Shown: positions 1,226-56,928 of the stretch, one piece after another
Position numbering within the stretch: the first letter of the stretch is position 1
Layout: each line of letters opens with the position of its first letter
Source: Ilex aquifolium
Lineage: Eukaryota; Streptophyta; Magnoliopsida; Aquifoliales; Aquifoliaceae
Assembly: GCA_951799425.1 (NCBI GenBank)
Contig: OX637393.1
Coordinates: forward strand, 21,865,744 to 21,929,743
Reading direction: 5' to 3'
DNA: 64,000 nucleotides
The notes under the pieces: model-generated
Database searches by the model: none
Told to the model about the DNA's origin: nothing
What the model saw: the letters and a program-made list of their open reading frames with translations, nothing else
Translations under genes and position numbers: made by a program

Positions 1226-1600
1226 AACGTTCAAACGCCAACTCACGTTCGAACGTCCACAATACACTGTAGCAGACTCAACTGCTGAAGAGAAGGCATG
1301 TTGCAGTTAGGAAAGAAGACTGGAGCTCTGAAGTACTTGAGTGCACATTCGAACGCCAACTCATGTTCGAACGTGCACTTGAGTTGATGGAAGACCAGAC
1401 CACTGCAGAGAGTTGGAACTGAACTTCACAGAAGACCACAGATCACTCGAGTAAAAGGGGTCAGAGCAAATCTGGCGTTCGAACGCCCTTAGTGCAAAAA
1501 CAAGAAGAAACGTTCGAATGGCAGTCAACGTTCGAACGCCCTCAGTGCAAAAACAGAAAGAACGTTTGAACGCCAACTCACGTTCGAACGTTATCCACAG
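1226..1600 (+). promoter_or_regulatory. Array of CGTTCGAACG palindromes, B 5' LTR
   Basis: Nine perfect or one-base-off copies of CGTTCGAACG lie upstream of the LTR TATA box. Most come in pairs with an 8-base spacer (CCAACTCA or similar), giving 18 bp centre to centre. Several copies here have CG changed to CA or TG where the 3' LTR keeps CG, as expected for deamination of methylated CpG. The binding factor is unknown; the promoter role is inferred from position. Confidence 0.7.
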
Positions 1601-1683
1601 ACTGGCAGCAGAGTTGTTGACTGTTCACTTGGACTTGGGCGGCAAACACTATTCTTTCACCCCCCCTGCCTCCTCCTCTTGCC

Positions 1684-1690
1684 TATAAAT
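1684..1690 (+). promoter_or_regulatory. LTR TATA box, B
   Basis: TATAAAT in the context CCTATAAATACTCCCC, about 640 bp into the LTR and just downstream of the palindrome array. The matching box in the 3' LTR is at 11591-11597. Transcription probably starts about 30 bp downstream. Confidence 0.7.
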
Positions 1691-3003
1691 ACTCCCCTTG
1701 TTGGAGAGCTAAAAGAAGAGCATAGTAGGAAGTAGATAGTGATGGAGGCTTAGACTCCCACTCTCATTGTAGTTAGTTCATTTTCCTTATGAAGTCTTTA
1801 TTTTAGAGATTAGTTTGGCTTTAGCCCAACATCTCTTGCTTGTTATAACAGTAGTTTTATTCTTATGCTTATGTTTATGCTTTCATTTCTCATGCATAGA
1901 AGAGAAATAGCTCCCATCTTGGTTGAGGAAGCAACCCTCCAATCTTTGGTTGAGGAAGCCACCCTCCAAATGTGACTAGCTTTCTTCTACTTTTATTGTT
2001 CATGCATTTCACTTCCATTGCTTGAGCTTCCTTCTTTCTTAGAAGAGTGAAACTCTTCCACTTTTCTAGAGCTTGATTAAAGCCGTGAAGGGTGGAACGG
2101 GATTCACTCATTCTTTGTGGAAGATTCACTCCGCGTTTGTTGTTACTTTATCTTTTAAAGTTCTCCACTTGGAGGGATGAGCATCACTCACTTTTCTAGC
2201 TTTACCCAAGCCATGAAGAGTGAGTAGTTTCTCATTCACTCTTTAGTGAGAGGAGAAAGGCATGTACAAGTTATCCGGGAATCATATTTGTGCAATGTTC
2301 TTTTATGTTTAACGTTTATTTCTTCTTGTTATCGGATGATTGATTGCATCTAGCAAAGCTAAGGTACTTTGTATAATTGTGAGCTCTTTCTATGACATGG
2401 ATGACTCCTGCATAGAAAGACTCATCAGTTCAAGGCAAGTACCCCGGCTAGATCCTCATGACTACCCTTCAATCTCCCCCCTTAATGTACTTCATTTAAA
2501 GAATGGACTATTAATATCATGATTGGATGTCTTGTAGAAACACTTGCTTGTTTGTACACGGGTTAAGTCTCGGCACAGGCAATTCTTGTAAACTTCTAGA
2601 AAGACATCAGAATCATGTTCTTAATTCTCACAATCCATCTTTATCTTCCGATTAACTTGCTGTTGACACGGGAGTTAATTGAGTTATCAAGCACAATTAT
2701 GACAAACCAGATAACTAACTACATGTCCAGATCCTTGCACTAAAGGGTGACTCTTTTTAATTAGCATTCATCTCCTATTTTGTTAAGAAAATCTTTCTGG
2801 AAAGAATCTTATATTCTGTCCAGCAAAACCCATATCTCGCAGCAAATCAAAAAGGTTACAATCAAAAGGTCTCTACCACTGCTTGCCTTAGAGATATCAA
2901 CAAAAGTTCCCTGTGGATTCGACTCCGGACTCAAATCGGATTATTACTACAGCTTGACTGCCTGCACTTGGGTGTATACATTTGGATCAAGCCATCAAGT
3001 TTT

Positions 3004-3021
3004 TGGCGCCGTTGCCGGGGA
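3004..3021 (+). other. Primer-binding site, tRNA-Asp type
   Basis: TGGCGCCGTTGCCGGGGA lies seven bases after the LTR end. It is complementary to the 3' end of plant tRNA-Asp as I know it, the primer used by many Athila/Tat elements. The same site is seen in C, D and H. Confidence 0.85.
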
Positions 3022-9272: not shown

Positions 9273-9683
9273 ATGGATGTAAATCTTTTTTGGTTTAGCC
9301 TAGGAGTCCTACGTACTTTTCCATCTGATGTACATATCATGATCATGAGAAAAGCAAGATTAGTAAGGAAGGCTGAAATCAAAGAAAAACAAGCGAAACC
9401 CCTCTGTGGCAGAAGTAGCTTTGCCAAACGCCGTCGTGCAAAAAGGCTTGGTGCCTGTAAACAGTGTGGCAGATACTTTCACGAAAAAAGGTACAACCAG
9501 TGTTCTGAACCAATTTTCGGTCGCGCACTTGATCGATTAGACTGGATAGTGAATGGGCTGAGTAAGGATTACCCTGATACGCCATGCTATTCCGGTACTG
9601 TGCTTAACCGATTTGTGAGAGAGGAAGTTGGTAGAGTTACTGGTTGTCCATTTTACACAGACACAGAGGGAGACTCAGATTAG
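9273..9683 (+). CDS. Intact Cys/Arg-rich ORF resembling carlavirus nucleic-acid-binding protein
   Basis: 136 residues. I chose the ATG at 9273 (MDV) because B and D align from there; upstream in-frame sequence differs in length. Residues 45-58 read CGRSSFAKRRRAKR, a GRS motif plus arginine-rich run, followed at once by C62, C65, H70 and C77. A GRS/arginine-rich segment just before a CX2C cluster is the hallmark of the carlavirus cysteine-rich protein (Pfam Carla_C4, from memory), which binds nucleic acid and acts in the nucleus or as a silencing suppressor in some species. The last 55 residues (82-136) are identical in D despite silent base changes. Found only in the TTCGAACG family here. Homology is judged by eye, and capture or convergence remain open. 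Confidence 0.6.
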   Translation: MDVNLFWFSLGVLRTFPSDVHIMIMRKARLVRKAEIKEKQAKPLCGRSSFAKRRRAKRLGACKQCGRYFHEKRYNQCSEPIFGRALDRLDWIVNGLSKDYPDTPCYSGTVLNRFVREEVGRVTGCPFYTDTEGDSD

Positions 9684-9940: not shown

Positions 9941-10245
9941 AACGTTCGAACGCCAGGTAACGTTCGAACGTTGAAAGCTTACAGTACTCAGCCTCTGATG
10001 AAGCTTCTGCAGAAACTTGAAAGTACTGGGAGCTCAGTCCGTTCGAACGCCAATAGACCGTTCGAACTAGATTAACGTTCGAACGCCAATAGACTGTTCG
10101 AAGGAAGAGTATTTATAGTACTTTGGCCTCTGACAGAAACTCAAAAGTACTGGGAGCTCATCATGTTCGAACGCCAGACCACGTTCGAACGATCTTTTTA
10201 AATTCCTTCTACCAACGTTCGAACGTCACCAACGTTCGAACGTTA
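9941..10245 (+). promoter_or_regulatory. Internal array of CGTTCGAACG palindromes, element B
   Basis: At least eight copies of the palindrome that marks the LTR, again in pairs 17-19 bp centre to centre. They lie directly upstream of a TATA box and about 240-540 bp before the 3' ORF; one more copy sits at 10467-10476, just before the start codon. D has the counterpart at 52938-53220. The repeat of the LTR arrangement suggests a second promoter. Confidence 0.65.
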
Positions 10246-10480: not shown

Positions 10481-10984
10481 ATGCCAAGGATGAAACTTCC
10501 TGCCAGGCGTGCTCCACCAGTGAATCAAGACCCAAACATGGTAGAAGAAGTGATTGAAGAAAGGGGAGGAAGGCAAAGGACCAAGACGTATGACAGAACC
10601 AGATTTCCTAATGCCTTGAAGGCTGAGAGGTATGAAAATTTTTACCGTAAGCATGCTATTGTCTGTGAGAGGGATGTTGTGATTGATGATTTTGCTGAGA
10701 TTGGTATAAAGCAAGAAATGGAGAGGAGGGAGTGGGTATGGTATTTGAGAAATGGTGGAGACGCCGTTGTTGAATTGGTGTAGGAGTTTTACTCCAACGC
10801 TGAGATCATCAACGGCGCAATACGGACATATGTTAGGGGTACCCACATTGACGTGGACGAAGCATACATTGGGGAAATAAGGGAAGAAATACCCCGGGTG
10901 CAAAACCCTACCTACCCACCAAAGAAGAATGTAGCAATGACTGTGGTAGGAAAGGAGTTGACAGGGATAGCTGACTTTTCATGG
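10481..10984 (+). pseudogene. Element B 3' ORF, truncated (putative plant transposon protein family)
   Basis: Begins ATGCCAAGGATGAAACTTCC. A basic, proline-containing N-terminus is followed by a domain with YENFYRKHAIVCERDV, EFYSNAE and YVRGTHIDVD. These blocks match the 'putative plant transposon protein' domain (PF20167-type, from memory) common in 3' ORFs of Athila-like elements. No signal peptide or membrane span is visible, so it is not an envelope protein. TAG at 10781 replaces CGG of D. Homology with D ends at FSW (10984), where the sequence runs into the 3' LTR; about two thirds of the ORF is lost. Function unknown. Confidence 0.8.
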
Positions 10985-10988: not shown

Positions 10989-12903
10989 TAAGACTAATGG
11001 TACTTTAATGGAGTTTAAGTGATGTCATTTCAGGCCCTAAACTGAACAAGGACCCAAGAACAACAAGTATCACACTTGGATGCAGCACCAGTACATTAGA
11101 GCCCAAAATTGGAGAAGCTTGGAGCACAGCCAGAACGTTCGAACGCCAACTCACGTTCGAACGTCCACAATACACTGTAGCAGACTCAACTGCTGAAGAG
11201 AAGGCATGTTGCAGTTAGGAAAGAAGACTGGAGCTCTGAAGTACTTGAGTGCACGTTCGAACGCCAACTCACGTTCGAACGTGCACTTGAGTTGATGGAA
11301 GACCAGACCACTGCAGAGAGTTGGAACTGAACTTCACAGAAGACCACAGATCACTCGAGTAAAAGGGGTCAGAGCAAATCTGGCGTTCGAACGCCCTTAG
11401 TGCAAAAACAAGAAGAAACGTTCGAACGGCAGTCAACGTTCGAACGCCCTCAGTGCAAAAACAGAAAGAACGTTCGAACGCCAACTCACGTTTGAACGTT
11501 ATCCACAGACTGGCAGCAGAGTTGTTGACTGTTCACTTGGACTTGGGCGGCAAACACTATTCTTTCACCCCCCTGCCTCCTCCTCTTGCCTATAAATACT
11601 CCCCTTGTTGGAGAGCTAAAAGAAGAGCATAGTAGGAAGTAGATAGTGATGGAGGCTTAGACTCCCACTCTCATTGTAGTTAGTTCATTTTCCTTATGAA
11701 GTCTTTATTTTAGAGATTAGTTTGGCTTTAGCCCAACATCTCTTGCTTGTTATAACAGTAGTTTTATGCTTATGCTTATGTTTATGCTTTCATTTCTCAT
11801 GCATAGAAGAGAAATAGCTCCCATCTTGGTTGAGGAAGCAACCCTCCAATCTTTGGTTGAGGAAGCCACCCTCCAAATGTGACTAGCTTTCTTCTACTTT
11901 TATTGTTCATGCATTTCACTTCCATTGCTTGAGCTTCCTTCTTTCTTAGAAGAGTGAAACTCTTCCACTTTTCTAGAGCTTGATTAAAGCCGTGAAGGGT
12001 GGAACGTGATTCACTCATTCTTTGTGGAAGATTCGCTCCGCGTTTGTTGTTACTTTATCTTTTAAATTTCTCCACTTGGAGGGATGAGCATCACTCACTT
12101 TTCTAGCTTTACCCAGCCATGAAGAATGAGTAGTTTCTCATTCACTCTTTAGTGAGAGGAGAAAGGCATGTACAAGTTATCCGGGAATCATATTTGTGCA
12201 ATGTTCTTTTATGCTTAACGTTTATTTCTTCTTGTTATCGGATGATTGATTGCATCTAGCAAAGCTAAGGTACTTTGTATAATTGTGAGCTCTTTCTATG
12301 ACATGGATGACTCCTGCATAGAAAGACTCATCAGTTCAAGGCAAGTACCCCGGCTAGATCCTCATGACTACCCTTCAATCTCCCCCCTTAATGTACTTCA
12401 TTTAAAGAATGGACTATTAATATCATGATTGGATGTCTTGTAGAAACACTTGCTTGTTTGTATACGGGTTAAGTCTCGGCACAGACAATTCTTGTAAACT
12501 TCTAGAAAGACATCGGAGTCATGTTCTTAATTCTCACAATCCATCTTTATCTTCCGATTAACTTGCTGTTGACACGGGAGTTAATTGAGTTATCAAGCAC
12601 AATTATGACAAACCGGATAACTAACTACATGTCCAGATCCTTGCACTAAAGGGTGACTCTTTTTAATTAGCATTCATCTCCTATTTTGTTAAGAAAATCT
12701 TTCTGGAAAGAATCTTATATTTTGTCCAACAAAACCCATATCTCGCAGCAAATCAAAAAGGTTACAATCAAAAGGTCTCTACCACTGCTTGCCTTAGAAA
12801 TATCAACAAAAGTTCCCTGTGGATTCGACTCCGGACTCAAACCGGATTATTACTACAGCTTGACCGCCTGCACTTGGGTGTATACATTTGGATCAAGCCA
12901 TCA
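10989..12903 (+). repeat. Element B 3' LTR (5' end truncated)
   Basis: 1915 bp, nearly identical to the 5' LTR from its base 39 to the CATCA end. Holds the palindrome array (11133-11501, with more intact CG centres than the 5' copy) and TATA at 11591-11597. Followed by GTGAC. Confidence 0.95.
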
Positions 12904-16714: not shown

Positions 16715-18637
16715 TGATGAGCACAAAATATTGTATATTTCAAGGCCTCATTACATGCATTTTAACTCAACTTTTGCATCTAAGTACTTAGAGTTAGCCG
16801 ATTTTATGAATAATGTTGAATTTTCGATGTTGCATGTTTTTATAGCTTAAATCATGTATTTTAGGACCTTGCAACTATGTTGGAGGTGTGGTGAGGGCAT
16901 TGACACATTACATGAAGATTTGGAGGCTTAAAAGTGAAGAAATCAAGGAGGTATTGGTGTTTGGTAACAAAGGCGCCAACAGCCACACCACTGGGTTGAA
17001 GAGCCTCGGTTTTCCTCCATTTTTACCATGATCCACTTCGAATCTGAACAATTTCAAAACACGAAAGTTTTAGATCTAGATGTCTTCTATATCGTTTCAA
17101 AATTTGAGCTCAATCCAACGGTTGGATCAAAAGTTATACCTATTCTACCAAAACTGGTCCGGAGCAGAAAACAGTACCGGTACACAGTACCGGTACTATA
17201 CAGTTCCGGTACTGCGTATCGGTACTTCGACTCCAGAAGGTTTAGAGTACCGGTACCCTCCCAGAACAACCCAGAACTCTTCTCCACTTGCTTGGGGGTC
17301 CCACCATTGATTCTCCCACACCTAGGCCGACATTTTATTCCTACAACCATGCCTCCTACACCCTACTTGAAGACATTTTGAAGGCTTGGGCATTAAGGGA
17401 AGAGAGAGAGAGAAGGGGGCTGCCATGTGGGTTGCAGGCTAGCTCTTCCTTAGCCTGTCAAGAGCCATAACTCAGCCACCCATTGATGGGAGGCCTGCAC
17501 ACAGCTAGGGGGGACCACCATGCACGAAAATTGAAGGCTAACTCTCCAATATATTCAGCATTTTACACATTGTATTGGGTGGCTACCTAAGCTTAGAAAA
17601 TGCCATGAAGAAGATAATGAATAGTGCCATAGTGTAAGAAATTTATGTTTTTGCATTTTCTTCCATCTTTTCACTTGTAACCTTCTTGAATACTCTTGTA
17701 AGCTTCATTAATTACTTTTAATGTCATTTACTTCAAGTGCTTTGCAAGTTTAGTTGAATATTCTAGATTTCACCATTGTTATTTAAGTTCTCTTCATTTC
17801 AAGCTTTTAAATTGGGTTTTTCATATTTGTCTTCTTAGTTTAAGTTTTCTTGTATTAGTTCAAGTTTCATGCTCCATTTCATTATGTCCATTTACATTAT
17901 GCTTGTCTTTCCTTTATGCATGACTAGCTAGATTTTTAGTTGGCTAATTCAAGGGAGAATTCCTCTTGGGCCCTCCATTTCAACTTATTTTCTTTCCTCC
18001 CCGGTGTACGATGGTTCGGTTTGACTGGGTTGAGTGTGGACGTGGTGGTGAGTCCTTGATATCCCGTAGGCATTTGTCACGGGGTATGCTTGGATCCTCA
18101 CCTCCATTTGGTTGTGAGGCTTTGATATTCCGTAGACTTGTCACGGTTTATGCTTAGATCCTCACCTCCATTTGTCCCGAACTTCCCACGAATCAATCGT
18201 TCATCTATAAACCCTTGGAGGAAGGTTTTGAGTTGAGTTGTTAGTCCCATTGGAATGACCCTTTGGATTAGCCAACACTTGTTTTCTTGCATTTTCATTA
18301 CAAACACAACTCTACAAAACAAACTAAAAGATTTTACACTTTCCCTTTTTGACAAAATCACCTTCACACACTTGAACTTTCCTTCCCTGAGGAGACGACC
18401 TTGGAATACTTTTCCAAGTAAAACACCGACACACAAAAGACTCTTTGCGATTGGGGAGCACTTTTGTTCACACATTTCATTTCATATATTTTGTTCATTC
18501 CATTTTCCACCAATCCGTTGTTGCCTAATCTCTTGCATCACCCCGAGGGAGAGTGACACTCCCCTTCACACATAAGCCATATACACATTGAGGGATGATG
18601 TTAAGGGGTTAGGAACTACAACGTTTTTCATCAATCA
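16715..18637 (+). repeat. Solo LTR S (GTACCGGTAC family)
   Basis: 1923 bp, TG...CA, flanked by ACGTG duplications, with no primer site or internal region: a solo LTR left by LTR-LTR recombination. Downstream of its palindromes it is clearly related to element A's LTR (for example 18000-18600 against the reverse strand of 40560-40060), but the first 500 bp and the palindrome differ. No clear TATA seen. ORFs inside (17028-17381 and others) are unsupported. Confidence 0.9.
17172..17257 (+). promoter_or_regulatory. Array of GTACCGGTAC palindromes in solo LTR S
   Basis: Five copies, two perfect and three degenerate: AGTACCGGTAC, AGTACCGGTACTA, GTTCCGGTACTG, GTATCGGTACTT and AGTACCGGTACC. Centres are 13-16 bp apart for the first four. 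Position in the LTR matches the CCTTCCGGAAGG array of A's LTR. Confidence 0.65.
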
Positions 18638-18710
18638 ACGTGTTAGGTAGCCCTATGCTTTAAGGATGGGGGAATATTGCTCAACTTTCGATATTTGATA
18701 AGTTTTAGGA
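18638..18710 (+). other. Element A noncoding remnant between S and D
   Basis: Begins with the second ACGTG. A short stretch containing GGATGGGGGAATATTGCTC, ended by the ATACC duplication of D. In the restored order it continues into 44042 and downward on the reverse strand. Confidence 0.7.
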
Positions 18711-18715
18711 ATACC
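18711..18715. repeat. Target-site duplication of D (ATACC, reverse of GGTAT)
   Basis: Directly abuts the end of the reversed D-family LTR. The partner GGTAT is at 44043-44047, beside D's 5' LTR, 25 kb away and in the opposite orientation. This pairing ties the two LTR parts to one insertion. Confidence 0.85.
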
Positions 18716-20100
18716 TGTTCTTGATCCGAAATGTGTACACCCAAGTGCAGGCGGTCAAGCTGTAGTAATAATCCGGTTTGACTCCGGAGTCGAATCCACA
18801 TGGAACTTTTGTTGATATTTCTAAGGCAAGCAGTGGTAGAGACCTATTGATTGTAACCCTTGAGATTTGCTGTGAGATATGAGTTTTCCTGGACAGAATA
18901 TAAGATTCTTTCCAAGAGGATTTTCTTAACAAAATAGGAGATAAGTGCTAATTAAAAAGAGTCACTCTTTAGTGCAAGGATCTGGACATGTAGTTAGTTA
19001 TCCGGTTTGTCATAATTGTGCTTGATAACTCAATTAACTCCCGTGTCAACAGCAAGTTAATCGGAAGATAAAGATGGATTGTGAGAATTAAGAACATGAT
19101 TCCGATGTCTTTCTAGAAGTTTACAAGAATTGCCTGTGCCGAGACTTAACCCGTCTACAAACAAGCAAGTGTTTCTACAAGACATCCAATCATGATATTA
19201 ATATTCCATTCTTTAAATGAAGTACAATAAGGGGGAGGATTGAAGGGTAGTCATGAGGATCTAGCCGGGGTACTTGCCTTGAACTGATGAGTCTTTCTAT
19301 GCAAGAGTCATCCGTGTCATAGAAAGAGCTCACAGTTATACAAAGTACCTTAGCTTTGCTAGATGCAATCAATCATCCAATAACAAGAAAAAATAAACGT
19401 TAAGCATAAAAACAATGCACAAATATGATTCCCGGATAACTTATACATGCCCTTCTCCTCTTACTAAAGAGTGAATGAGAAACTACTCACTCTTCATGGC
19501 TTGGGTAAAGCGAGAAAAGTGAGTGATGGTCATCCCTCCAAGTAGAGAACTTAAAAGATAAAGTAACAACAAGCACGGAGCCAATCTTTAACAAAGAATG
19601 GGTGAATCACGTTCCACTCTTCACGGCTTTGGTAAAGCTCTAGAAAAGTGGAAGAGTTTCACTTTTCTAAGAAAGAAAGAAGCTCAAGCAATGGAAGTGA
19701 AATGCATGAACAATAAAAGTAGAAGAAAGCTAGTCACATTTAGAGGGTGGCTTCCTCAACCAAGAATTGGAGGGTTGCTTCCTCAACCAAAAGATGAACT
19801 ATCTCTCTTCTATGCATGTAAAATGAAAGCAGAAGCATAAGCATAAGCATAAAACTACTTTTATAACAAGCAAGAGATGTTGGACTAAAGCCAAACTAAT
19901 CTCTAAGATAAAAACTTCATACAAGGAAAATAAGCTAAATCTACAATGAGAGTGGGAGTCTAAGCCTCCATCAATTATTTTACTTGGCTCCTCTAGCTCT
20001 CCAACAAGGGGAGTATTTATAGGCAAGAGGAGGTGAAGGAATAGTGTTTGCCGCCCAAGTCCAAGTGAAAAGCCAACAACTCTGCTGCCAGTCTGTGGAG
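18716..20100 (-). repeat. Element D 3' LTR, second part (separated by inversion)
   Basis: Reverse strand of a TTCGAACG-family LTR from CTCCACAGACTGGC to its end ...CGGATCAAGAACA. TATA (reverse) at 20014-20020. Together with 56381-56928 it makes 1933 bp, against 1947 bp for D's 5' LTR, with no overlap and essentially no gap. Shares D-specific variants (AAGTAAAATAATTGATGG) rather than those of B. Confidence 0.9.
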
Positions 20101-20106
20101 GTTAAT
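20097..20106. other. Left breakpoint of 36.8-kb inversion
   Basis: D-family LTR ends at about 20100 (CTGTGGAG) and chromovirus LTR begins at about 20102 (TTAATCGTTTCGGG). The reciprocal joint is at 56929-56936. Confidence 0.8.
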
Positions 20107-21859: not shown

Positions 21860-21957
21860 AAAACCTACCGGTAGAACGATGATAAACCTACCGGTAGAAC
21901 TTTTCCGGTGGGCAAAACCTATCGGTAGGACGATGACAAACCTACCGGTAGGTTTTC
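21860..21957 (+). promoter_or_regulatory. CTACCGGTAG palindromes, F 3' LTR
   Basis: Five ACCTACCGGTAGG-like units, one degenerate (TTCCGGTGGG). The 5' LTR copy (62545-62750) has about twice as many, so the array has changed length. It lies downstream of the TATA box, unlike the arrays of the Athila-like elements. Confidence 0.6.
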
Positions 21958-22128
21958 CAAAAATCTAAAATTTTAAGAATGCTTTGCCATGCTTTCGGGC
22001 TTTATGTCATTTTATTCAAATGATATAAATGGACAATAATGAAGTATAAATTATGGTATATTGGACCTCTGATGGGTCATGTGATTAAATGTATAGAGGA
22101 TATTCATTTGGGAGTGCCTCGTACAAGG

Positions 22129-22133
22129 GAGAC
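22129..22133. repeat. Target-site duplication GAGAC, left of solo LTR J
   Basis: The partner copy is 24346-24350. Both lie inside the F LTR, which reads on across the insertion. Confidence 0.9.
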
Positions 22134-24345: not shown

Positions 24346-24350
24346 GAGAC

Positions 24351-24486
24351 TCTACACAAACTTTGAGTTATTATGATCCCGGTGAAGGGGATGTTGTGCC
24401 GTGATGATGGGTTACGTGGCATTCACGGGTGTTTCCGCAGGTTGACTGTTGGCCAACGGGATGAGAAAGGACCCTCGGTTTTAGGG
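24351..24486 (+). repeat. Element F 3' LTR, tail
   Basis: Resumes after J and matches the reverse strand of 62231-62370 up to CGGTTTTAGGG. The expected final GCGTCACA is absent, and the sequence passes directly into pol of element I, so the LTR end is eroded or deleted. I found no copy of F's expected duplication here. Confidence 0.75.
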
Positions 24487-27112: not shown

Positions 27113-27317
27113 TGATTAAGGCCGAATAATCACATTTATTATTAGGAAAGATTGATTATTTAATTGTAAAAGTGTGATAAATATAAAAGTTTATCCAAGT
27201 TTGGGTGTTATGCTATCAAATGTTGATTTGTGTTAATTTGCAGGACAAAAGCGTAATTTTGGAGTTAAATTATGGGAAGACGAAGCATAGCTCAAAGGAA
27301 AACACACTGGATCACGT

Positions 27318-27428
27318 GTCCGGACGGAAGATGAACACGCGTCCGGACGCGAGTGGCAGAAAGGTGATTAGAAGACGAACAAACTTACTGGAGTTGCGTC
27401 CGGACCGAAGATGAACACGCGTCCGGAC
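27318..27428 (+). promoter_or_regulatory. GTCCGGAC palindromes, C 5' LTR
   Basis: Four sites at 27318, 27341, 27398 and 27421, forming two pairs each exactly 23 bp centre to centre. The 3' LTR has the same four sites (37811, 37834, 37891, 37914). Confidence 0.75.
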
Positions 27429-34084: not shown

Positions 34085-34310
34085 TGGAGCATTCACTTGG
34101 GATAAAAAGTATATGGGATTTTGAATTTGAGTTTTGGGCACTTGCAACTGTGTTTCTTGTTTTGTTTTTAGTATAGTTATGTAGTTTTTTTTTAGGGACT
34201 TAGGAATTTTTTTATGAGAAGAATGGAGTCATTTGGGAGGAAAGAGTTTAAAAAGGTGAAAATATGAAATTTTTTTCTAAGTGTAGAAAAAATAACTCAC
34301 TGGAACATGC

Positions 34311-34558
34311 GTCCGGACGCCAGAATAGAGAGCACAACCCACTGGAAGTCGCGTCCGGACGGAACCAATGAGGCTGAACTCTCTGGAAAGCGCGTCCGGA
34401 CGTGACTGCATAACGCGTCCGGACGGAAGGTCAACCGTTTCAAATTCCAGAGGCGCGTCCGGACGGGACTGCACCATGCGTCCGGACGCGTGTTCTTTAA
34501 GGCAAATAAATACGGTAGTTGATCTGCGTCCGGACGGTTACACTCCATGCGTCTGGAC
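34311..34558 (+). promoter_or_regulatory. Internal GTCCGGAC array, element C
   Basis: Eight sites at 34311, 34353, 34394, 34417, 34457, 34480, 34528 and 34551 (last is GTCTGGAC). Three pairs are exactly 23 bp apart, as in the LTR. The array ends 14 bp before a TATA box. Confidence 0.75.
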
Positions 34559-34571
34559 GCGTGTAAAAATT

Positions 34572-34671: not shown

Positions 34672-35766
34672 ATGGCACCACCTAGAGCCTCGACTTCTAA
34701 GAGACCCCGAACCAGTACTCAGGAGCACCAAGAGGAGGAAGACACCACTTTTGATCCCGTTCGTTTCCAAACCTTGGAGGCTCGAGTAAGATTTTTTAAA
34801 TACTACGCCCTTAAGCCTGTAGTCTGTGAGAGAAAAATAGAATATGAGGACTTCGCCCGGTTGGGAGTCCGAGACATTGTCACTTCGAGGCGATGGGCAG
34901 GTTTCATGGGAAAAGAGTGGTTGTGTATCCCTATCTTAGCGAGAGAATTTTTTAGCAATGCGGACGATCTTGGCAATGGCCAAATCCACACCTATGTTCG
35001 GGGCACAGAGATCAGGGTGGATGCTATGGTTATTGCCAGGCTGATTGGGATGACGCAGGCTCGGGTGGCCAACCCGGATTATCCCCAGGCTTATCCCGGG
35101 AATGAGGTCGGACGAGAGTTACTGGGGGATGGTGATTTTATTTGGACGGACAACCTCAAATATCTTCAGCAAGGGGATCTGACCAGTAAGTATAAAATAC
35201 TGAACTTAATCTCAGTGTCAAACATCCTTCCTTTACTGAGAAATAACCACATCTATCCGGACCGGGCTCGCTTGTTATATGCTATGGGCACCGGAAAGTC
35301 CATTGACCTTCCATCATTGATTTTTTCTGAGATGAGACGAGCCATCGTCGATCCGAAAAAACCATCTCTCCCTTTTGCTGGTTTGGCCACTGCGTTGTGC
35401 GAGTAGGCAGGAGTGGTGATCGACGCCACTATGGAGCGAGCCAAGAAAGTGGTGGCACTCAACTATGGCACCCTTTTGAAAAGTCAGAGTATAGCCAGGC
35501 CAGTGCCAGGAGAGAGGGGTCCAGGGGGTGAGCAAGCACCACCACCAGGGGTGGAACCAGAGGAGGAGGACTGAGATCAGTTCCTCAATATTGAGGAGAA
35601 TTTTGACATACCAGTAGATGAGGATACTGATCCTAGGACTGACAGGCAGATTTTATTTGAGCTGTTGAGAGGACAGAGAGAGATGAGGAAGGAGATGAGA
35701 GAGCTGAGGGCTCAGATGAGGGGGTTAGGGCAGAGTACTCAGGATCAGGCAGGCCCCTCATCTTAG
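34672..35766 (+). pseudogene. Element C 3' ORF (putative plant transposon protein family)
   Basis: 364 codons plus stop, from ATGGCACCACCTAGAG. Basic N-terminus (STSKRPRTS), then the conserved domain with VCERKIEYEDF, REFFSNADD, YVRGTEIRVDAMVIARLIG, KYKILNLISVSN and RARLLYAMGTGKSIDL, and a C-terminal acidic then coiled, charged segment (REMRKEMRELRAQMRGL). Two in-frame stops: TAG 35404 and TGA near 35572. Homologous to the 3' ORFs of A, B, D and I. No signal peptide or transmembrane span. Function unknown; nucleic-acid or chromatin roles are possible but unproven. Confidence 0.8.
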
Positions 35767-37589: not shown

Positions 37590-37605
37590 GTGGGGGGGGG
37601 GGGTG
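37590..37605 (+). other. Polypurine tract, element C
   Basis: A 12-13 base G-run ending GTG, immediately before the 3' LTR; primes plus-strand DNA. Confidence 0.8.
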
Positions 37606-38686
37606 TGATTAAGGCCGAATAATCACATTTATTATTAGGAAAGATTGATTATTTAATTGTAGAAGTGTGATAAATATAAAAGTTTATCCAAGTTTGGGTG
37701 TTATGCTATCAAATGTTGATTTGTGTTAATTTGCAGGACAAAAGCGTAATTTTGGAGTTAAATTATGGGAAGATGAAACATAGCTCAAAGGAAAACACAC
37801 TGGATCACGCGTCCGGACGGAAGATGAACACGCGTCCGGACGCGAGTGGCAGAAAGGTGATCAGAAGACGAACAAACTTACTAGAGTTGCGTCCGGACGG
37901 AAGATGAACACGCGTCCGGACGCGTGTCAAGGATCTGCTGATGCCAGACTTAGAATTCTGACGAAAATCAATCTCTTTTCTAGGGGGTTATAAATACAAA
38001 TTGAAGACTTTGTAAGGGGGATCTTTTTATCATTCTTTTTGGTCACGAATTCTTCAGTGTACTTTGCAATTCTTTTATTATGTCCGGCTAGAAGGTTAAG
38101 CTAGGGCTAGGGAAAACCTCTCAGTGAAGTACGGTATTTTTATGGACTTTGTACTTAATGATTTATGATATTGTGTTAACTTAATTTCTGATCTTTTAGT
38201 AAAGTTTTTATTCTGTAAAAACTCATGAGTTGTGCCACGTACATCGATTGCTTGAGTTTCCCTGCGAATGAATAACTGGTTATTCCACGTTTGAAGTGTT
38301 AGCATTGTTTCATAAAATGATTTGATTAATTTATTATTCAGGTTTCTGAATAATCCTTTGATCATAACTTTTGGTTTCATCACTTGATTTGTTATTTGGG
38401 TTAATCGACATTTAATTCCTGTTTCAAATTAGGCTTCAAGTCTTTTATTATTACCGTATGAAATTGAGAGGGAGTACCTGATGCTCTAGTATTTTTATTA
38501 CTGTTTTAATTATTAAAGTCAATTGTTTTCAATCAAAACTCCTCAATCAAACTTTCTCATTTTAATTTATTAGTATTTGTGTGATTGTTTACTTGTTACA
38601 ATTCCTTGTGGGTTCGACCTCGGACTTCCGAGAATATATTACGCTGCTCAACCTACGCTTGGGTTTACAATTCTAAAGTTGAAGCA
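37606..38686 (+). repeat. Element C 3' LTR
   Basis: 1081 bp, TGATTAAGGCC...GAAGCA. Some palindromes that read GTGTCCGG in the 5' copy are CGTCCGG here. Followed by GTCAG (38687-38691). Confidence 0.95.
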
Positions 38687-41312: not shown

Positions 41313-41512
41313 AAACCTTCTAGAAGGTCGACAGAAACCTTCCGGAAGGTTTGTGCATGAACAGTTAAATGTAGCAGCTAGCAGGCAAAACCTTTCGGAA
41401 GGTTTCACTCCAGTAGGCAAAACCTTCCGGAAGTTTTTACTCCAGTAGACAAAACCTTCCGGAAGGTTTTGGCTGTGAAAAAGAAATTCAAGGCAAAAAC
41501 TTCTGGAAGGTT
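41313..41512 (-). promoter_or_regulatory. CCTTCCGGAAGG array, A 3' LTR
   Basis: Six copies (ACCTTCCGGAAGGT or one or two bases off). Centre spacings seen are 22 and 32 bp, one helical turn apart. Each core is TTCnnGAA, the inverted pair of a heat-shock element, which may be coincidence. Confidence 0.65.
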
Positions 41513-42073: not shown

Positions 42074-43233
42074 TCAATCATTATCCTCGTCAAAGGTATC
42101 CTCGTCCTCAGTCTCAGACTCGGACTTGGACTCTGACTCTGACTCCTCCTCATCGTTGTCATCATCCTCTCTCATCTCCAAAGTCATGGAGGGCACATAA
42201 GCAGCAGTAGAGGGTCCAGCTGAAGGCTGTGGAGGTGGTGGTGGTCCTCCGGGGACAGGTTCACCCGGAAAAGTATGCTCAAAAAGTCTCGTAACCATGA
42301 CCGTCAGGTTGTGCATAATGGACTCTAAAGCATCCAAGCACTGAGGAATGGTACGGGCTGGGGCTGGTGTAGGTGCTGGTGGTGGGGGTGCTGCAGAAGA
42401 AGGCTCGGCCTCAGAATGCTCTGGCTCCCTAGCCCTAGCTCTCCCCCCTCCAGTCCTAGCAGCTCTCTTCAAGCTGCTAGACTTGCTAATCACTCCAGTC
42501 TCTGGGGGGAGCAGGGCATCATGAGCATAGTGCTTGACCTTGGCCAGGTCACACAATTTAGTGATGAGGCTGCCAAATGGCAGGTTTGCCTTTGGCTTTG
42601 CAGCTTGGGCAAACTCCTGCATCTCTAACCAAATCATATAAGCCACATCAATGGCAACCCCCGTCATAAAAGCCTAAAGCAAAGCCAACTTCTCTAGGTT
42701 TCGGCTCTTCTCTGAACCCCGGGGCAACAACGTTGTTCCTATGAACGTGGTCGGGTCCTCATAGGTAAGGGCCACGTAGTCTCTGAGAGTTCTACCCACA
42801 ACCACATTGTGTGGATAGATCGGGGTGGTCGGGGGAGATCTCTCGTAGCCCATCGCCTTAGTATTGTGTCAGGGGTTACCTCGAATGTCTTACCCCTCAC
42901 ATTGGTTCTTAACCCCTGCCCGTTATCTCCAAACACTGACAATTTTTGAATGAATTCGCAACACAAGCTCAAGTTATACCCTTTAACTTCCTCAAACCAT
43001 AATTTCAAACCCCGTGCTTTGATGATTCTAACAACCTCATTGTCAAGCCCGAGAGAAACCTTGTCGACATGACGTTCACAAGTTATGCCCTTCTCCTCAA
43101 TCCTTTGCCTCCGGGTGTCGTGTATTGCCTTGGTCCGCCTCTCTTGGTCACTTGGGCCCTCCCCGGCTCTCTTTCGAGAGCTCGAACCTATAGGTGGAGG
43201 AGAGTCCGGGGCCGTTCTTTTGGTACGGCCCAT
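42074..43233 (-). pseudogene. Element A 3' ORF (putative plant transposon protein family)
   Basis: Read on the reverse strand from MGRTKRTAPDS. Lys/Arg-rich N-terminus, then CERHVDKVSLGLDNEV, GDNGQGLRTNVRGKTFEVTPDTI (domain homologous to YVRG blocks of the other 3' ORFs), a frameshift near 42840, then PFGSLITKLCDLAKV, a proline/alanine-rich linker and a strongly acidic Asp/Glu/Ser tail ending at 42074. TAG interrupts near 42674. Shares the fold order of the C and D proteins but is much diverged. Apparent CDSs on the opposite strand here are shadows. Confidence 0.75.
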
Positions 43234-44042
43234 GAGCATCAACAGTGCCCCAATACCTAAAACCATAAAAAACATCTACCATATAATCTCAAAGGGCTCA
43301 AGTGCCTCCATAGACATCCCATTAATTCTAGCCATTGCAATGGTGTCGAGGAAGGTTGGAAAAGATAAGAGAAACCGCACAAATTGGGGAAAATGGCAAC
43401 CTAGGGTTTTTGTGGAGCACACTTGAAATTTTCGGCTAAAATGCTCTAAGATTCAACCCTAAACAAGAGAAAGTAAGAGAATTGAGAGCTGGAAGGAGTG
43501 ATTTGAAGGTTAGAAGAGAGTAGGAGGAGAGGAGAGGGTTTGGGAGCAAGAGGTGGATTGGAAATGTGAAGGGTTTTTCAAAATTTCGAACTTAAAACCC
43601 TTGTTTTCAGTTTTCTGGGCAAAACCTTCCGGAAGGTCGACAGAAACCTTCCGGAAGATTTTGCTTACTGTCTGGGTTAAAAAATTCTAGTAGGCAAAAC
43701 TTTCAGGAAGGTTTTGCTTACTGGACAAAACCTTCCAAAAGGTTTTGATAGACCTTCAGGAAGGTTTTGTCTTTGCTGCAAAACCAATCCCTTTTTCAAA
43801 AATTCACATCCAATCCAACATTTCTCAACTCCAACACATTTAAACACCTTTTCTAAAACCTCTAGCCTACCAGAGACTTGAACCACTCTTATGAACCACA
43901 ATTGGTTGATCATGCCCAAAGTCATTTCCAAAATTGCAACATGATTTAAGATTTTGATGTTTTCAAAGTATAAGACATGGAATTCTAATTCAAACTACCA
44001 AAATGAATACCCAAAATATGAAACATGAATTCAAATAGCAAT
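43234..44042 (-). other. Element A region upstream of its 3' ORF
   Basis: No gene. Contains the CCTTCCGGAAGG array at 43621-43770. I see no convincing TATA between array and ORF. Ends at D's GGTAT duplication. Confidence 0.65.
43621..43770 (-). promoter_or_regulatory. Internal CCTTCCGGAAGG array, element A
   Basis: About five units; the first pair (centres 22 bp apart, spacer TCGACAGAAA) repeats exactly a pair in the LTR array. Lies 390-540 bp before the 3' ORF start. Confidence 0.65.
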
Positions 44043-44047: not shown

Positions 44048-44230
44048 TGATTAACACTTAAAATTAGCATATTACTATGCCGTTTTAAGACTAATTGTAC
44101 TTTGATGGAGTTTAAGTGATGTCATTTTAGGCCCTAAACTGAACAAGGACCCAAGAACAATAAGTACCACACTTGGATGCAACACCAACACATTAGAGCC
44201 CAAAATTGGAGAAGCTTGGAGCACAACCAG

Positions 44231-44598
44231 AACGTTCGAACGCCAACTCACGTTCGAACGTCCACATTACACTGTAGCAGACTCAACTGCTAAGAGAAGG
44301 CGTGTTGCAATTAGGAAAGAAGACTGAATCTCTGAAGCACTTGAGTGTCACGTTCGAACGCCAACTCATGTTCAAACGTGCACTTGAGTTGATTGAAGAC
44401 CAGACTACTGCATAGAGTTGGAACTGAACTTCACAGAAGACCAATAGACCACTCGAGTGAAAGGGTCAGAACACATCTGGCGTTCGAACGCCCTTAGTGC
44501 AAAAATAGAAGAAACGTTCGAACGGCAGTCAACGTTCGAACGCCCTTAGTGCAAAAATAGAAACAACGTTCGAATGCCAACTCACGTTCGAACGTTCT
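44231..44598 (+). promoter_or_regulatory. CGTTCGAACG array, D 5' LTR
   Basis: Same nine-site layout as B, with three eroded copies (for example GTTCAAAC, GTTCGAATG). The 3' LTR copy is 56572-56928. Confidence 0.7.
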
Positions 44599-52256: not shown

Positions 52257-52667
52257 ATGGATGTAAAACTTTTTTGGTTTAGCCTAGGAGTTCTACGTCC
52301 CTTTCCATCTGATGTGCATACTATGATCATGAGAAAAACAAGATTAGTAAGGAAGGCTGAAATCCAAGAAAAACAAGCGAAACCCCTCTGTGGCAGAAGC
52401 AGCTTTGCCAAACGCCGTCGTGCCAAAAGGCTTGGTGCCTATAAACAGTGTGGCAGAGTCTTTCACGAAAAAAGGTACAACCAGTGTCTTGAACCAATTT
52501 CCGGTCGCGCACTTGATCGATTAGACTGGATAGTAAATGGGCTGAGTAAGGATTACCCTGATACGCCATGCTATTCCGGTACTGTGCTTAACCGATTTGT
52601 GAGAGAGGAAGTTGGGAGAGTTACTGGCTGTCCATTCTACACAGACACAGAGGGAGACTCGGATTAG
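52257..52667 (+). CDS. Intact Cys/Arg-rich ORF resembling carlavirus nucleic-acid-binding protein
   Basis: 136 residues, same length and start as B's copy, nine amino-acid differences, no gaps. Keeps CGRSSFAKRRRAKR and C65, H70, C77, but Cys62 is Tyr, which should weaken any zinc site. Residues 82-136 are identical to B while the DNA shows silent changes there. It is open although the neighbouring gag-pol has seven lesions. See the B entry for the family argument; the same uncertainty applies. Confidence 0.6.
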   Translation: MDVKLFWFSLGVLRPFPSDVHTMIMRKTRLVRKAEIQEKQAKPLCGRSSFAKRRRAKRLGAYKQCGRVFHEKRYNQCLEPISGRALDRLDWIVNGLSKDYPDTPCYSGTVLNRFVREEVGRVTGCPFYTDTEGDSD

Positions 52668-52937: not shown

Positions 52938-53220
52938 ACGTTCGAACGCCAGGTAACGTTCGAACGTCAGCTGCTTACAGTACTCAGCCTCTGATGAATT
53001 TTATGATGAAACGTGAAAGTACTGGGATCTCTATCCGTTCGAACGCCAATAGACCGTTCAAACGAGATTAACGTTCGAACGAAGAGAACCTACAACACTT
53101 TGGCCTCTGACAGAACTTAAAAGTACTGAGAGCTCACCACGTTCAAACTCCAAACCACGTTCGAACGGTCTGTTTAAAATCCTTCTACCCACGTTCGAAC
53201 GTCACCAACGTTCGAACGTT
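52938..53220 (+). promoter_or_regulatory. Internal CGTTCGAACG array, element D
   Basis: About eight sites, several eroded, in pairs; ends 12 bp before the TATA box. Confidence 0.65.
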
Positions 53221-53447: not shown

Positions 53448-54551
53448 ATGCCAAGAGTCAAGCTTCCTGCCAGGAGGAACCCAAACACCCAAGAGCAAAA
53501 TTTTGTCGAAGAAGTGGTGGAGGTGAGAGAAGGAATGCCACCACTCACAAGGAGATACGACAAGACTCGGTTTCTCACAGCTCTAAAAGCAGACAGGTAT
53601 GAAAATTTCTACCAAAACAAAGCCATTGTTTGTGAAAGAGATGTGATTTTGGCTGATTTTGCGGAGTTGGGGATCTTTGCGGAGATGGAAAGGAGGGGGT
53701 GCTTGTTTTATTTGAGGAACGGCGGTGAGGCCGTAGTCGACTTGGTGCGGGAGTTTTACTCCAACGCCGAGATCATCGACGGGGAAATTTGAACTTATGT
53801 AAGGGGAGTCCATGTGGACGTTGATAAAGATTATATTTGGGGGGTAAGGCAAGAGGTGCCTCGGGTTCCAAATCCCGATTATCCCCCAAGGAAGAATGTG
53901 GCGATGAATGAGGTGGGGAAGGAACTGACTGGAGTACCCAATTTTTCGTGGACTGGGAAGAAATTTTTTAGACAAGGGGAGCTAAGTGACAAATACAAAA
54001 TGTTAAACTTGATTGCGGTGTCAAATTTTGCTCCAATAGGAAGAAAAAATGAAGTTTTACCTAACATGGCCCGGTTGTTGTATGCGATTGGAAAAGGGTA
54101 AAGCATTGATCTCCCCTCCCTAATTCTGACAGAAATGAAAAAGGCGTGTGATGTGAAGAGGAATTCGCTTCCCTTCGACACCCTAGTGACAGAACTGTGC
54201 AAAGGCCATGGGGTGAGGGTGAAGCCAGAGATGGAAATCCAAAAGCCGATGGGGCCACTGAACAAGGCATCCTTTCGAAGGAGCCAAAGTCATAGTGGCG
54301 GCCCGGCAGTCAGACAGGAGAGGCCACCCACCCAGGGAGTAGACGAGGTACAAGAGGAGCTTGACGCAAAGAAGGAGAGAGAGATGGAAGAAGAGAGAGA
54401 TCAGCCACCAGAGATAGGCCCTAGCACCAGCACCAGCACCCGACGCTCCTTACGGGACATCATGCTTAGCATTGAAGCTAAGCAGGATGAGACCCTTAGG
54501 CTTATGAGGGGTGGTGGACATGGTGGAGCTAGTGGACATGCAGAAGAGTGA
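53448..54551 (+). pseudogene. Element D 3' ORF, near full length
   Basis: 367 codons from ATGCCAAGAGTCAAGC to HAEE, all in one frame, with two stops: TGA 53790 (CGA-type codon) and TAA near 54099. Domain blocks VCERDVILADF, REFYSNAEI, YVRGVHVDVD, KYKMLNLIAVSNF and ARLLYAIGKG are followed by a charged, Glu/Lys-rich C-terminus with a possible coiled coil (EELDAKKEREMEEERD). Serves as the reference for B's truncated copy. Role unknown; the matched palindromes before it and in the LTR make a self-regulatory DNA-binding role worth testing. Confidence 0.8.
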
Positions 54552-56370
54552 GAGAGAGAGGGATTTCTGTTCTTTTTCTTGTTTTTATGTTTGTTTAAAG
54601 TGCTTCTTTTTATGAATTTCTTCTTTGATAGTTGTAATTTTTTTTTGTTTGATTGTGAATGAATCGAACCGTTGATATTAAAAGATTATATTTTGAGAAA
54701 TGAATTGTTCCATTTATCACTTTTATTTGTTTTAATGCATTTGTAGATTTAGCATAAAATTAAAATGTGATGGAACAAATGTGGATGTTAAGAATGCATG
54801 CTAGAGTAAATATGCACATGATCGGTTTGACACCTCAATTTATCAACCGAGACTTAAAACCACATTTCTTGAAAAAATTGGTATTCTCTCTATACTTAAA
54901 TTGTCATATGTACATCGATATTTGTTATTTTAAAGGTACAGGAAGATCTGACTCGAAAATGGAATTGGTATATAACCAATACCCCCTGGAAAACCCGACA
55001 TACACAGTGGAGATAACAAAGAACACCAGGGTGAGTTTCGAACCTAACGATGCTTTCGAGAGACAATCAATGTTTACTCAAGTAAATTCTTTTCACTCTC
55101 AATTTTTGAATGATCTCATTAACCTTTCTTTGATTGACGCACTTAAAAGTGATCTATTGACATATCCCACAAGGAACCATCGCATACGACACATACATGT
55201 GCACATGCTTGAGAAATGATCTTAGGCCATCTTTGATATAATATTGAGCTTTAGACCTTTCTTTGACAAAACTTATCCCTCGTTAGCCATGTTTGAGCCA
55301 TCAATGTATGAATTTTTCTTTGATAAACCTATATGATTACCAATCCACAGGAAAACATACTTGACATACCTTGGCTATCTAATTTTCTTACATCCTCTTT
55401 GTAATATGATAACATAAAATGGAAAAGAAAAAGAAGCATTCGAGATTATCATCCAAGAAGAGTTGATTGGAACAATTGAAATAGAAAAGAAGCAAAAAGG
55501 CAAGAACTTGCCAAGAAAGTGAAAAATGAGAAAAGTGAAAGAAAGAAATGTCATCTCCAGGCAAAATATCAAAAAGTTAGAAAAATGTGTGCTACAATAC
55601 GTAAACAGAAGATAGCTTTTGAAAATCCCTGACGTTGTTTCGTTAGCCACTGACCTCTGGCAACGCTACAACCTATGAAAAGCCCTAATTGATCTCAAGT
55701 CTGTTACATGCATGTGTTGTTAATCAAAATTGGGATATGGTAAATAGCATTTCTTTAAATTGCATCAATATCGTTTCATGAGATTATGCCAAACATGATT
55801 TATTGCTTCCTTAAACTAGCGCTCCCTTTCTAATTATGCATGTGATTTTTCGATTGGCCATCTTCTGATCACATGATCTGTGAGAAACAAGTCACTATAA
55901 TTAGAGTGAACTTTTGCTGAGGGTATACTACGTGAGGTTTGTGAAATCGAAACTATCCATGGAAGGTGATAAAAGGGAGTATTTGTTATATAACAAATTC
56001 CTGTTGCTTGAATGATCATTCCTACTGCATTGAGAATTTCAAATACCAATGTAACAAATGATAATTTTTGCATAGAATGAATACCTGTGAAATAAGGACG
56101 TGTGAGATATAAGTTAAATTGAGAATCTGGTGTCCCAACGACCATGATGCTAATTTAATTTAATCAGCATTCTCCTATGCACATCTGTTCGACTGAAGTT
56201 TGTGGGTAGCTTCCCTGGAAACCCTCACGAGACAACACTCATCCGCTAGGGTAAACCTAGTGGTTCAACGGCTTGTTGCATAAGCTAAATGCAACCGGAT
56301 GACCTACGAAAATGGCATTAGGAGTAGATTTTTCTTTTTTTTATATTACTAGAGACTAGCAATATTTAGG
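54552..56370 (+). other. Element D 3' noncoding region with conserved block
   Basis: No gene accepted. ORF 54767-55219 lies where C and A have plainly noncoding homologous sequence. Conserved block about 55030-56150. GGAAACCCTC and GGCTTGTTGCATAAGC before the polypurine tract match C. Confidence 0.7.
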
Positions 56371-56380
56371 TTGGGGGGTG
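56371..56380 (+). other. Polypurine tract, element D
   Basis: TTGGGGGGTG immediately before TGATTAGCAC. Confidence 0.8.
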
Positions 56381-56928
56381 TGATTAGCACTTAAAATTAG
56401 CATATTACTATGCCATTTTAAGACTAATTGTACTTTGATGGAGTTTTAAGTGATTTCATTTCAGGCCCTAAACTGAACAAGGACCCAAGAACTACAAGTA
56501 CCACACTTGGATGACACAAACACATTAGAGCCCAAAATTGGAGAAGCTTGGAGCACAGCCAGAATGTTCGAACGCCAACTCACGTTCGAACGTCCACATT
56601 ACACTGTAGCAGACTCAACTGCTATGAGAAGGCGTGTTGCAGTTAGGAAAGAAGACTGAAGCTCTGAAGCACTTGAGTCTCACGTTCGAACGCCAACTCA
56701 CATTCGAACGTGCACTTGAGTTGATTGAAGACCAGACTACTGCATAGAGTTGGAACTGAACTTCACAGAAGACCAACAGACCACTCGAGTGAAAGGGTCA
56801 GAACACATCTGGCGTTCGAACGCCCTTAGTGCAAAAACAGAAGAAACGTTCGAACGGCAGTCAACGTTCGAACGCCCTTTGTGCAAAAACAGAAACAACG
56901 TTCGAACGCCAACTCAAGTTCAAACGTT
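56381..56928 (+). repeat. Element D 3' LTR, first part
   Basis: 548 bp from TGATTAGCAC to CAAACGTT, containing the palindrome array but stopping just before CTCCACAGACTGGC, where the reversed part at 20100 begins. Confidence 0.9.

Follow-up and report, generated by a model that had tools for sequence, protein, structure and literature searches.

The window analysed here is a stretch of 64,000 nucleotides from the 800.2 Mb genome of Ilex aquifolium (assembly GCA_951799425.1, contig OX637393.1, positions 21,865,744 to 21,929,743; C3:21865744-21929743 of G000 in our numbering). It is a nest of long terminal repeat (LTR) retrotransposons, in which arrays of short palindromes, the subject of this report, lie in the LTRs and in some elements also ahead of a 3' open reading frame (ORF). 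Self-comparison of the window delimits the following elements:

About 1043-2997 and 10989-12903: 5' and 3' LTR of element B
From about 44048, and a piece reaching to 56928: 5' LTR and 3' LTR piece of element D
27112-28196 and 37605-38686: LTRs of element C
About 39.5-43.8 kb, minus strand: element A
Interrupted by B: element X1
About 57-64 kb, minus strand: element F

Element B contains gag, protease-reverse transcriptase (RT)-RNaseH and integrase, and stretches homologous to these are found in D, C and X1. The integrase ORF of B (Pfam rve, Integrase_H2C2) follows the RT-RNaseH ORF, which is the Ty3/gypsy order, and the primer site TGGCGCCGTTG stands after the 5' LTRs of B and C and also at 39855. 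The 3' ORF is present in B, D, C and A. Judged from these features, B, D, C, A and X1 are of Athila-type anatomy as far as each survives. Element F carries a gag piece, a zinc knuckle, RT, RNaseH, an SH3_Tf2-1 domain and the primer site TGGTATCAGAG, and will be called chromovirus-type; both lineage names, Athila and chromovirus/Tekay, are our assumption from element anatomy. Loci outside the window are denoted by L numbers. Among them, L016 and L022 (about 2036-2975) represent a further LTR family, H, whose LTR ends we take to be chromovirus-like.

The palindrome arrays of the window are listed below; those marked as new were absent from an earlier note on this DNA.

1228..1590, plus strand: B 5' LTR array; CGTTCGAACG, four exact and five one-mismatch copies; TATAAATA at 1684
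9943..10242, plus strand: B internal array; CGTTCGAACG, seven exact and three degenerate copies; TATAAAAG at 10256
11133..11481, plus strand: B 3' LTR array; CGTTCGAACG, eight exact copies
44230..44594, plus strand: D 5' LTR array; CGTTCGAACG, seven exact copies; TATA at 44689
52939..53218, plus strand: D internal array; CGTTCGAACG, seven exact copies; TATAAAAG at 53232
56566..56908, plus strand: D 3' LTR array; six exact copies; a rearrangement cuts the LTR at about 56928
27318..27428, plus strand: C 5' LTR array; GTCCGGAC, four exact copies in pairs 23 bp apart; TATA at 27496
34310..34560, plus strand: C internal array; CGTCCGGACG, seven exact copies, three pairs 23 bp apart; TATA at 34572
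37810..37922, plus strand: C 3' LTR array; four exact copies
41339..41465, minus strand: A LTR array; CTTCCGGAAG, three exact copies and three degenerate ones extending the array; no TATA within 200 bp downstream
43626..43764, minus strand: A internal array; CTTCCGGAAG, two exact and three degenerate copies; no TATA within 200 bp downstream
17174..17256, plus strand: X1 3' LTR array; GTACCGGTAC, three exact copies; new
21865..21951, plus strand: F element LTR array, chromovirus-type; CTACCGGTAG, three exact copies; new
62546..62746, minus strand: F element 5' LTR array; CTACCGGTAG, three exact copies and degenerate ones; TATAAA about 70 bp downstream; new

The motifs are closely tied to these places. 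Thirty-nine of the 40 copies of CGTTCGAACG in the window lie in the six B/D clusters, the remaining one being an extra copy at 10469, just ahead of the start codon of the B 3' ORF (10481); all 15 copies of GTCCGGAC lie inside the three C arrays and all five copies of CTTCCGGAAG inside the two A arrays. At each place where the earlier note had reported an array, an exact motif copy is found within 25 bp. The positions it gave are array starts, sometimes formed by a degenerate copy: its 1226 adjoins a one-mismatch copy at 1228, with the first exact copy at 1246, and for its A LTR array at 41313 the first exact copy is at 41338.

Palindrome arrays are real and are found throughout the genome. Exact copies of four motifs were counted genome-wide against the reversed-sequence pattern as control, giving 32,359 versus 278 for CGTTCGAACG, 8,992 versus 134 for CGTCCGGACG, 23,874 versus 931 for CTTCCGGAAG and 51,910 versus 907 for GTACCGGTAC, which is a 26- to 116-fold excess. 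The window and a sample of 20 stretches of 10 kb at round coordinates, picked before their contents were known, together 264 kb, were scanned without preference for any motif for 8-bp palindromes that occur at least three times with gaps of up to 150 bp. The scan returned 27 arrays, and none in each of five first-order Markov simulations. One of the four cores TACCGGTA, GTTCGAAC, GTCCGGAC and TTCCGGAA accounts for 23 of the 27; of the other four, ACACGTGT has a CG dyad and three are without one. The A internal array falls under the threshold of the scan with its two exact copies. The commonest 10-bp palindromes of the sample, with AT-only words excluded, are GTACCGGTAC (33), CGTTCGAACG (10) and CTTCCGGAAG (8).

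LTR and internal arrays of one element agree in motif. An internal array was seen in ten Athila-type elements, and in every one of them the LTR motif is identical to the internal one. Six of these, namely B, D, C and A of the window and L020+L025 and L007 of the sample, were met without regard to motif. The other four (L026, L027, L028 and L029) were chosen from motif listings in which two clusters lay suitably far apart, so that their anatomy is confirmed while the match between LTR and internal motif is not independently tested by them. The pairing spans four motif classes, with CGTTCGAACG in B, D, L020+L025, L026 and L027, CGTCCGGACG in C, L028 and L029, CTTCCGGAAG in A and GTACCGGTAC in L007, and upholds the layout of the earlier note, which had the same motif in the LTR and before the 3' ORF. 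The LTR arrays of L028 (3221660-3221773 and 3232032-3232145) are known from the motif listing alone and have the geometry of those in C; the internal array of A is 71.6% alike to its LTR array over 176 bp. A 3' ORF follows the internal array in nine of the ten elements (B, D, L020, L026, L027, C, L028, L029 and A). In X1 and L014, which have no 3' ORF, none of the five motifs was found internally, and none was found in L030, the middle of a chromovirus-type element for which LTR arrays are listed. L007 contains a 5,257-bp unit, comprising the LTR and a partial internal region with LTR and internal GTACCGGTAC arrays, which is tandemly repeated at 99.8% identity.

A TATA box often follows. Among 27 arrays listed by hand, several of them from the same element, 19 have TATAAA or TATATAA within 200 bp downstream, compared with 14.7% of random 200-bp windows. 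The distance from the end of an internal array to the TATA is 11-13 bp in B, D, L026, L027 and C, 46 bp in L020 and 77 bp in L007; from the end of an LTR array it is 52-115 bp where a TATA is present.

The arrays fall into five classes, denoted T (CGTTCGAACG), C (CGTCCGGACG), A (CTTCCGGAAG), F (CTACCGGTAG) and X (GTACCGGTAC), and their half-sites CGTTC, CGTCC, CTTCC, CTACC and GTACC form a series with one base changed per step. Classes T, A, F and X each occur in Athila-type elements and in another LTR lineage: CGTTCGAACG is common to B/D and LTR family H, CTTCCGGAAG to Athila-type A and chromovirus-type L022, CTACCGGTAG to chromovirus-type F and Athila-type L014, and GTACCGGTAC to Athila-type X1 and L007 and chromovirus-type L006. 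That each family has its own motif, as previously supposed, is therefore right only in part, since four of the five classes cross lineages and homologous LTRs switch class. The statement that the motif differs by family was likewise too strong in view of the unlisted GTACCGGTAC and CTACCGGTAG arrays, including that at 62546-62746 in a chromovirus-type LTR.

Flank alignments indicate that the motif class switches on homologous LTRs. In the chromovirus-type LTRs of F (F class), L006 (X) and L022 4968-5344 (A) both flanks are homologous, with 66-85% between classes, as are both flanks of the H LTRs in L016 (T) and L022 2551-2660 (X), with 76% and 70%. For the Athila-type LTRs of A (A class), L014 (F) and X1, L007, L020 and L025 (X), the 3' flank was matched in 14 of 15 pairs at 64-75% and the 5' flank in five of 15, two of them between classes; L020 has both flanks homologous to those of A and to those of L014 despite the different motif. 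The RTs of F and of the element containing L030 are 88.6% identical, yet their arrays consist of CTACCGGTAG and CTTCCGGAAG, respectively.

Spacing follows motif class more than lineage. Characteristic distances are 12-13, 16 and 31-32 bp (one of 22) in class X, 22, 31-32, 44 and 52-53 bp (one of 17) in class A, 22-23, 31-32, 43 and 54 bp in class F, 23, 40-42, 48 and 57 bp in class C, and 17-19, 32-35, 61-69 bp and longer in class T. Between the LTR and internal arrays of C the 23-bp pair spacing is kept and the spacer sequences differ. Athila-type A and chromovirus-type L022 have spacers in common too, so that whole-array copying between lineages is likely in this case. Taken as one set, the distinct distances of classes A, F and X tend to fall near multiples of 10.5 bp (p 0.002 under a simple null, the distances being non-independent); helical phasing is not leaned on, as X alone gives p 0.14 and class C p 0.86.

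In five T-class elements, identity in the LTRs amounts to 0.944 in palindrome columns, 0.780 in spacers and 0.816 in flanks, and in the internal arrays to 0.912, 0.837 and 0.854; the columns were chosen where at least one row had the exact motif, which favours palindromes somewhat. Circular shifts reached the observed palindrome identity in 2/390 and 3/301 cases. CpGs are kept at 117/131 palindrome positions in the LTRs, against 8/12 in spacers and 2/5 in flanks, and at 114/133 in the internal palindromes against 21/23 in flanks.

Several further observations were made on the arrays. L018 (8884-9113) contains a ACACGTGT array of five copies, a further CG-dyad motif. Near a contig end, at G000 C1:60595-157431, LTR-type arrays of CTTCCGGAAG occur as four pairs, the members of each pair being separated by 7.6-7.8 kb; L030, sampled from these pairs, is the chromovirus-type element mentioned above. 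An accessory motif, ACTGGA or TACTGG, stands beside the palindromes of several lineages (41383-41469, L022 4950-5370, L007 4630-4880). The density of ACTGGA is 3.49/kb in arrays, 0.40 in the genome sample and 0.61 in the window, about ninefold over the sample, and it occurs in 11 of 19 arrays after masking; as the arrays were chosen by us and near-exact palindromes alone were masked, this is a lead. Scans of the window for tRNA genes and Rfam families gave no matches, which leaves an RNA polymerase III or RNA-element reading of GTTCGAAC without support. As to the window itself, D lacks part of its 3' LTR, which is found inverted at 18710-20100, and F likewise lacks part of its 3' LTR, pieces of which are found at 20102-22150 and 24345-24486; these displaced parts fit an inversion of 20101-56930 with breakpoints in two LTRs.

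Two kinds of ORF near the internal arrays are relevant to the question of what might bind them:

9273..9683, plus strand: B Cys/Arg-rich ORF; Pfam Viral_NABP (carlavirus/allexivirus-like nucleic-acid-binding protein)
52257..52667, plus strand: D homologue of the Cys/Arg-rich ORF
34672..35406 (ATG to first stop), plus strand: C 3' ORF; PF20167 'putative plant transposon protein', E 6.7e-27
10481..10984, plus strand: B 3' ORF; cut off by the 3' LTR, one in-frame stop
53448..54551, plus strand: D 3' ORF region; two in-frame stops before the stop at 54549; first piece a PF20167 match below cut-off
42074..43230, minus strand: A 3' ORF; two frames, both pieces like PF20167 below cut-off

The 3' ORF matches PF20167 above the cut-off in C and in pieces of L027 and L020, and no Pfam family was matched by the first 100 residues of the B 3' ORF. 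The Cys/Arg ORF sits between integrase and the putative internal promoter in an abundant Athila-type family, in all five elements considered (B, D, L020, L026 and L027). All four scanned copies exceed the 23-bit cut-off of PF05515 (157-aa frame of B 39.6, D 35.2, L027 28.7, L026 25.8); for PF01623, with a cut-off of 20.9, the scores are 25.5 for B, 21.9 for D, 23.9 for L026 and, below it, 19.4 for L027. Ratios of nonsynonymous to synonymous substitution (dN/dS) of 0.22, 0.11 and 0.18 in three comparisons, with 0.23 for pol and 0.29 for gag between B and D, indicate that the Cys/Arg ORF is under purifying selection. A search of the genome yielded 4,104 candidates at loose criteria; the best 150 of them, which were scored, are all at least 95% identical, and by hand count 15 of these 150 have an in-frame stop; taking the best 150 biases this set toward intact copies. 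Against PDB sequences the protein matched ribosomal proteins (best E 0.024), and a scan of IMG/VR for relatives found none. Structure predictions were of low confidence, with a pLDDT of 48.9 for the C 3' ORF and 39.2 for the Cys/Arg protein, and neither reveal a DNA-binding fold nor rule one out.

The 3' region is mosaic. Over the stretch that begins at 8501 and takes in the Cys/Arg ORF and the internal array, 100-bp windows show 86-97% identity between B and D, with a single gapped window at 74%; identity falls to 53-76% from about 10241, the change lying about 20 bp past the internal TATA. In L027 the array and 5' leader resemble those of B (86-94%), the sequence from the start of the ORF onward resembles D (82-95%), and the leaders of L020 and L026 are closest to each other. 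Breakpoints are located at about 10277/53253 and at 10481 in the window, and in L027. By these alignments they are recombination breakpoints near the putative internal transcript start and at the 3' ORF start, which suggests that 3' modules are exchanged between elements; template switching with RNA from the internal promoter is a possible cause, the breakpoints being few. As the motif is identical in B, D, L020, L026 and L027, it does not follow the 3' ORF variant.

The reading favoured here, with a probability of roughly 0.58, is that the arrays are promoter-proximal regulatory modules for predicted dimeric factors, most likely a host family acting in trans, and that classes switch by array replacement. 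Each palindrome, with half-sites of about 5 bp and a C-G dyad, would be bound by one protein dimer, and several dimers would bind per array at the characteristic spacings. In Athila-type elements whose 3' ORF would be expressed from an internal promoter, the same module would stand ahead of the LTR and internal promoters, so that full-length and internal transcription would be set jointly by one factor. This factor would be supplied in trans by the host, as a member of a family of transcription factors that are related but differ slightly in their half-sites; this origin is judged most likely since most motif classes recur in unrelated lineages, and such a family would explain both the class sharing and the graded half-sites. 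A class switch would then consist in the replacement of an array on an otherwise conserved LTR.

Several observations weigh against this reading. The internal array of L007 is without a recognisable 3' ORF, and the pairing of LTR and internal motif rests on one element each in classes A and X. No TATA is found in the 200 bp downstream of eight of the 27 arrays, namely A LTR, A internal, X1, L006, L007 LTR, L014, L020 LTR and L022T. Class C is seen in Athila-type elements only, and the array of L014 has two exact copies only. Arrays that were copied between lineages may need no shared host factor. Finally, palindrome CpGs are not clearly better kept than other CpGs.

An alternative is a transactivator encoded by the elements themselves, either the 3' ORF product or the B/D Cys/Arg protein, which would bind both arrays in a positive loop like that of foamy virus Tas, with the chromovirus-type elements as free riders. 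Co-regulation would come naturally, as the internal promoter precedes the 3' ORF; the B/D family has its Viral_NABP gene in every element examined and under selection, and 3' ORFs differ between motif classes, with 35-43% identity between C and L027, L020 and L026. However, arrays are present in X1, L014, F and the element of L030, where neither a 3' ORF nor a Cys/Arg ORF was found, the roughly 400 bp between integrase ORF and array in C are without a Cys/Arg ORF, and 3' ORF variants about 55-86% identical in nucleotides keep one motif after recombination. This alternative is judged unlikely. The earlier note had left open whether each family co-opts or encodes a cognate factor. Co-option fits better; encoding is disfavoured because Athila-type and chromovirus-type elements lacking the ORF keep their LTR arrays and the 3' ORF is exchanged with the motif unchanged, and, distant lineages sharing classes, a factor encoded per family is improbable as a general answer. 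The best place for an exception would be the B/D family, given its Viral_NABP-like ORF.

The arrays might also be targets of silencing or anti-silencing, the CG-dyad palindromes being bound in a methylation-dependent manner, on the model of VANC proteins, whose binding to short repeats leads to methylation loss. The palindromes are CpG-rich (three CpG per CGTTCGAACG), their CpG losses are mostly to TG or CA (13/14 and 17/19), as methylated sites would give, and motif arrays vary between related elements as they do for VANC targets in the part of PMC5735166 drawn on here. Confinement of the arrays to promoters instead of a spread over the whole element, and palindromic sites unlike the directional VANC motif, make this explanation improbable. 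Still more speculative, and a long shot, is the proposal that the classes are cross-lineage regulons whose promoter cassettes were traded between Athila and chromovirus elements, that the CGTTCGAACG activator is a captured carlavirus-type zinc-finger-like protein in a Tas-like loop, and that H elements are promoter parasites. Neutral tandem amplification, in which self-complementary repeats spread by slippage or conversion and have no binding function, could account for spacers partly common within and between arrays but is scarcely credible, being already contradicted by palindromes that outlast their spacers, by the palindromic C-G dyad of all five motifs, by the 23-bp pairing kept in C with different spacers and by the empty simulations.

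If modules for host factors are indeed what the arrays represent, a handful of site classes shared across lineages would govern several abundant retrotransposon lineages of this genome, and the long-puzzling Athila-type 3' (env-like) ORF would be expressed from a definable internal promoter and not by splicing. In a limited literature search, no title or abstract start mentioned such arrays in Ty3/gypsy elements or the viral-type ORF; absence from print is not claimed.

In foamy viruses a single factor, Tas, acts on the LTR promoter and on an internal promoter for the 3' genes. The arrays resemble this circuit in having the same sites at both positions, in the six unselected and four motif-picked elements. 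Tas is an element-encoded transactivator, whereas the counterpart here is only a candidate, the 3' ORF of family PF20167 with its low-confidence model. The Cys/Arg protein resembles the nucleic-acid-binding proteins of carlaviruses and allexiviruses (PF05515, PF01623) in having an Arg-rich stretch followed by CxxC; unlike theirs, its gene lies inside a retrotransposon. A protein of this Viral_NABP type from the carlavirus Chrysanthemum virus B is reportedly a plant transcription factor.

The VANDAL transposons and their VANC proteins, to which the arrays had been likened, also show short-motif arrays that vary between related mobile elements (PMC5735166, in the part used). They differ in that the motif, YAGTATTAY, stands in one orientation and the factor is element-encoded, and the carriers here are not VANDAL DNA transposons, as B and F encode reverse transcriptase. 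This analogy is weaker than that with the RM boxes of Sireviruses, which have the same layout. According to the portion of Bousios et al. (2010, PMC2829016) on which all statements about Sireviruses rest, these Ty1/copia elements have element-variable palindromes upstream of the LTR TATA, with extra boxes upstream of the env-like gene only in elements that possess it; of the linker copies, 77 of 79 precede env.

The likeness to Sirevirus RM boxes is close: high-copy LTR palindromes upstream of a TATA (19 of 27 arrays here), near-identical motifs in distant elements, and extra copies before the 3' (env-like) ORF and none where the ORF is absent, L007 being the exception here. Some Sirevirus boxes (Vitis CGGTCGACCG, Usier, Tnd-1) have a CG dyad as well. 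The carriers differ, being Ty1/copia there and Ty3/gypsy of Athila and chromovirus type here. All Sirevirus boxes described except that of Tnd-1 have a CGG-CCG core, often with intervening bases, and this order does not occur here, CGTTCGAACG having neither CGG nor CCG and the other classes having CCGG across the dyad. The Sirevirus octamer AGGGGGAG was not found before the 3' LTRs of B, C, D and A. In that account of Sireviruses an internal promoter was not conclusively identified and no common binding site for a single factor was found; unlike there, a TATA follows most internal arrays here, and the arrays further show spacing bound to class and a switching of motifs on a single LTR backbone. 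The arrays are a Ty3/gypsy counterpart of Sirevirus RM boxes, adding 3' module exchange, cross-lineage sharing and switching within one genome. If the favoured reading holds, the Sirevirus questions of 2010, what binds the palindromes and whether env has an internal promoter of its own, would become directly testable, with the five related sites and the natural motif-switch pairs serving as controls.

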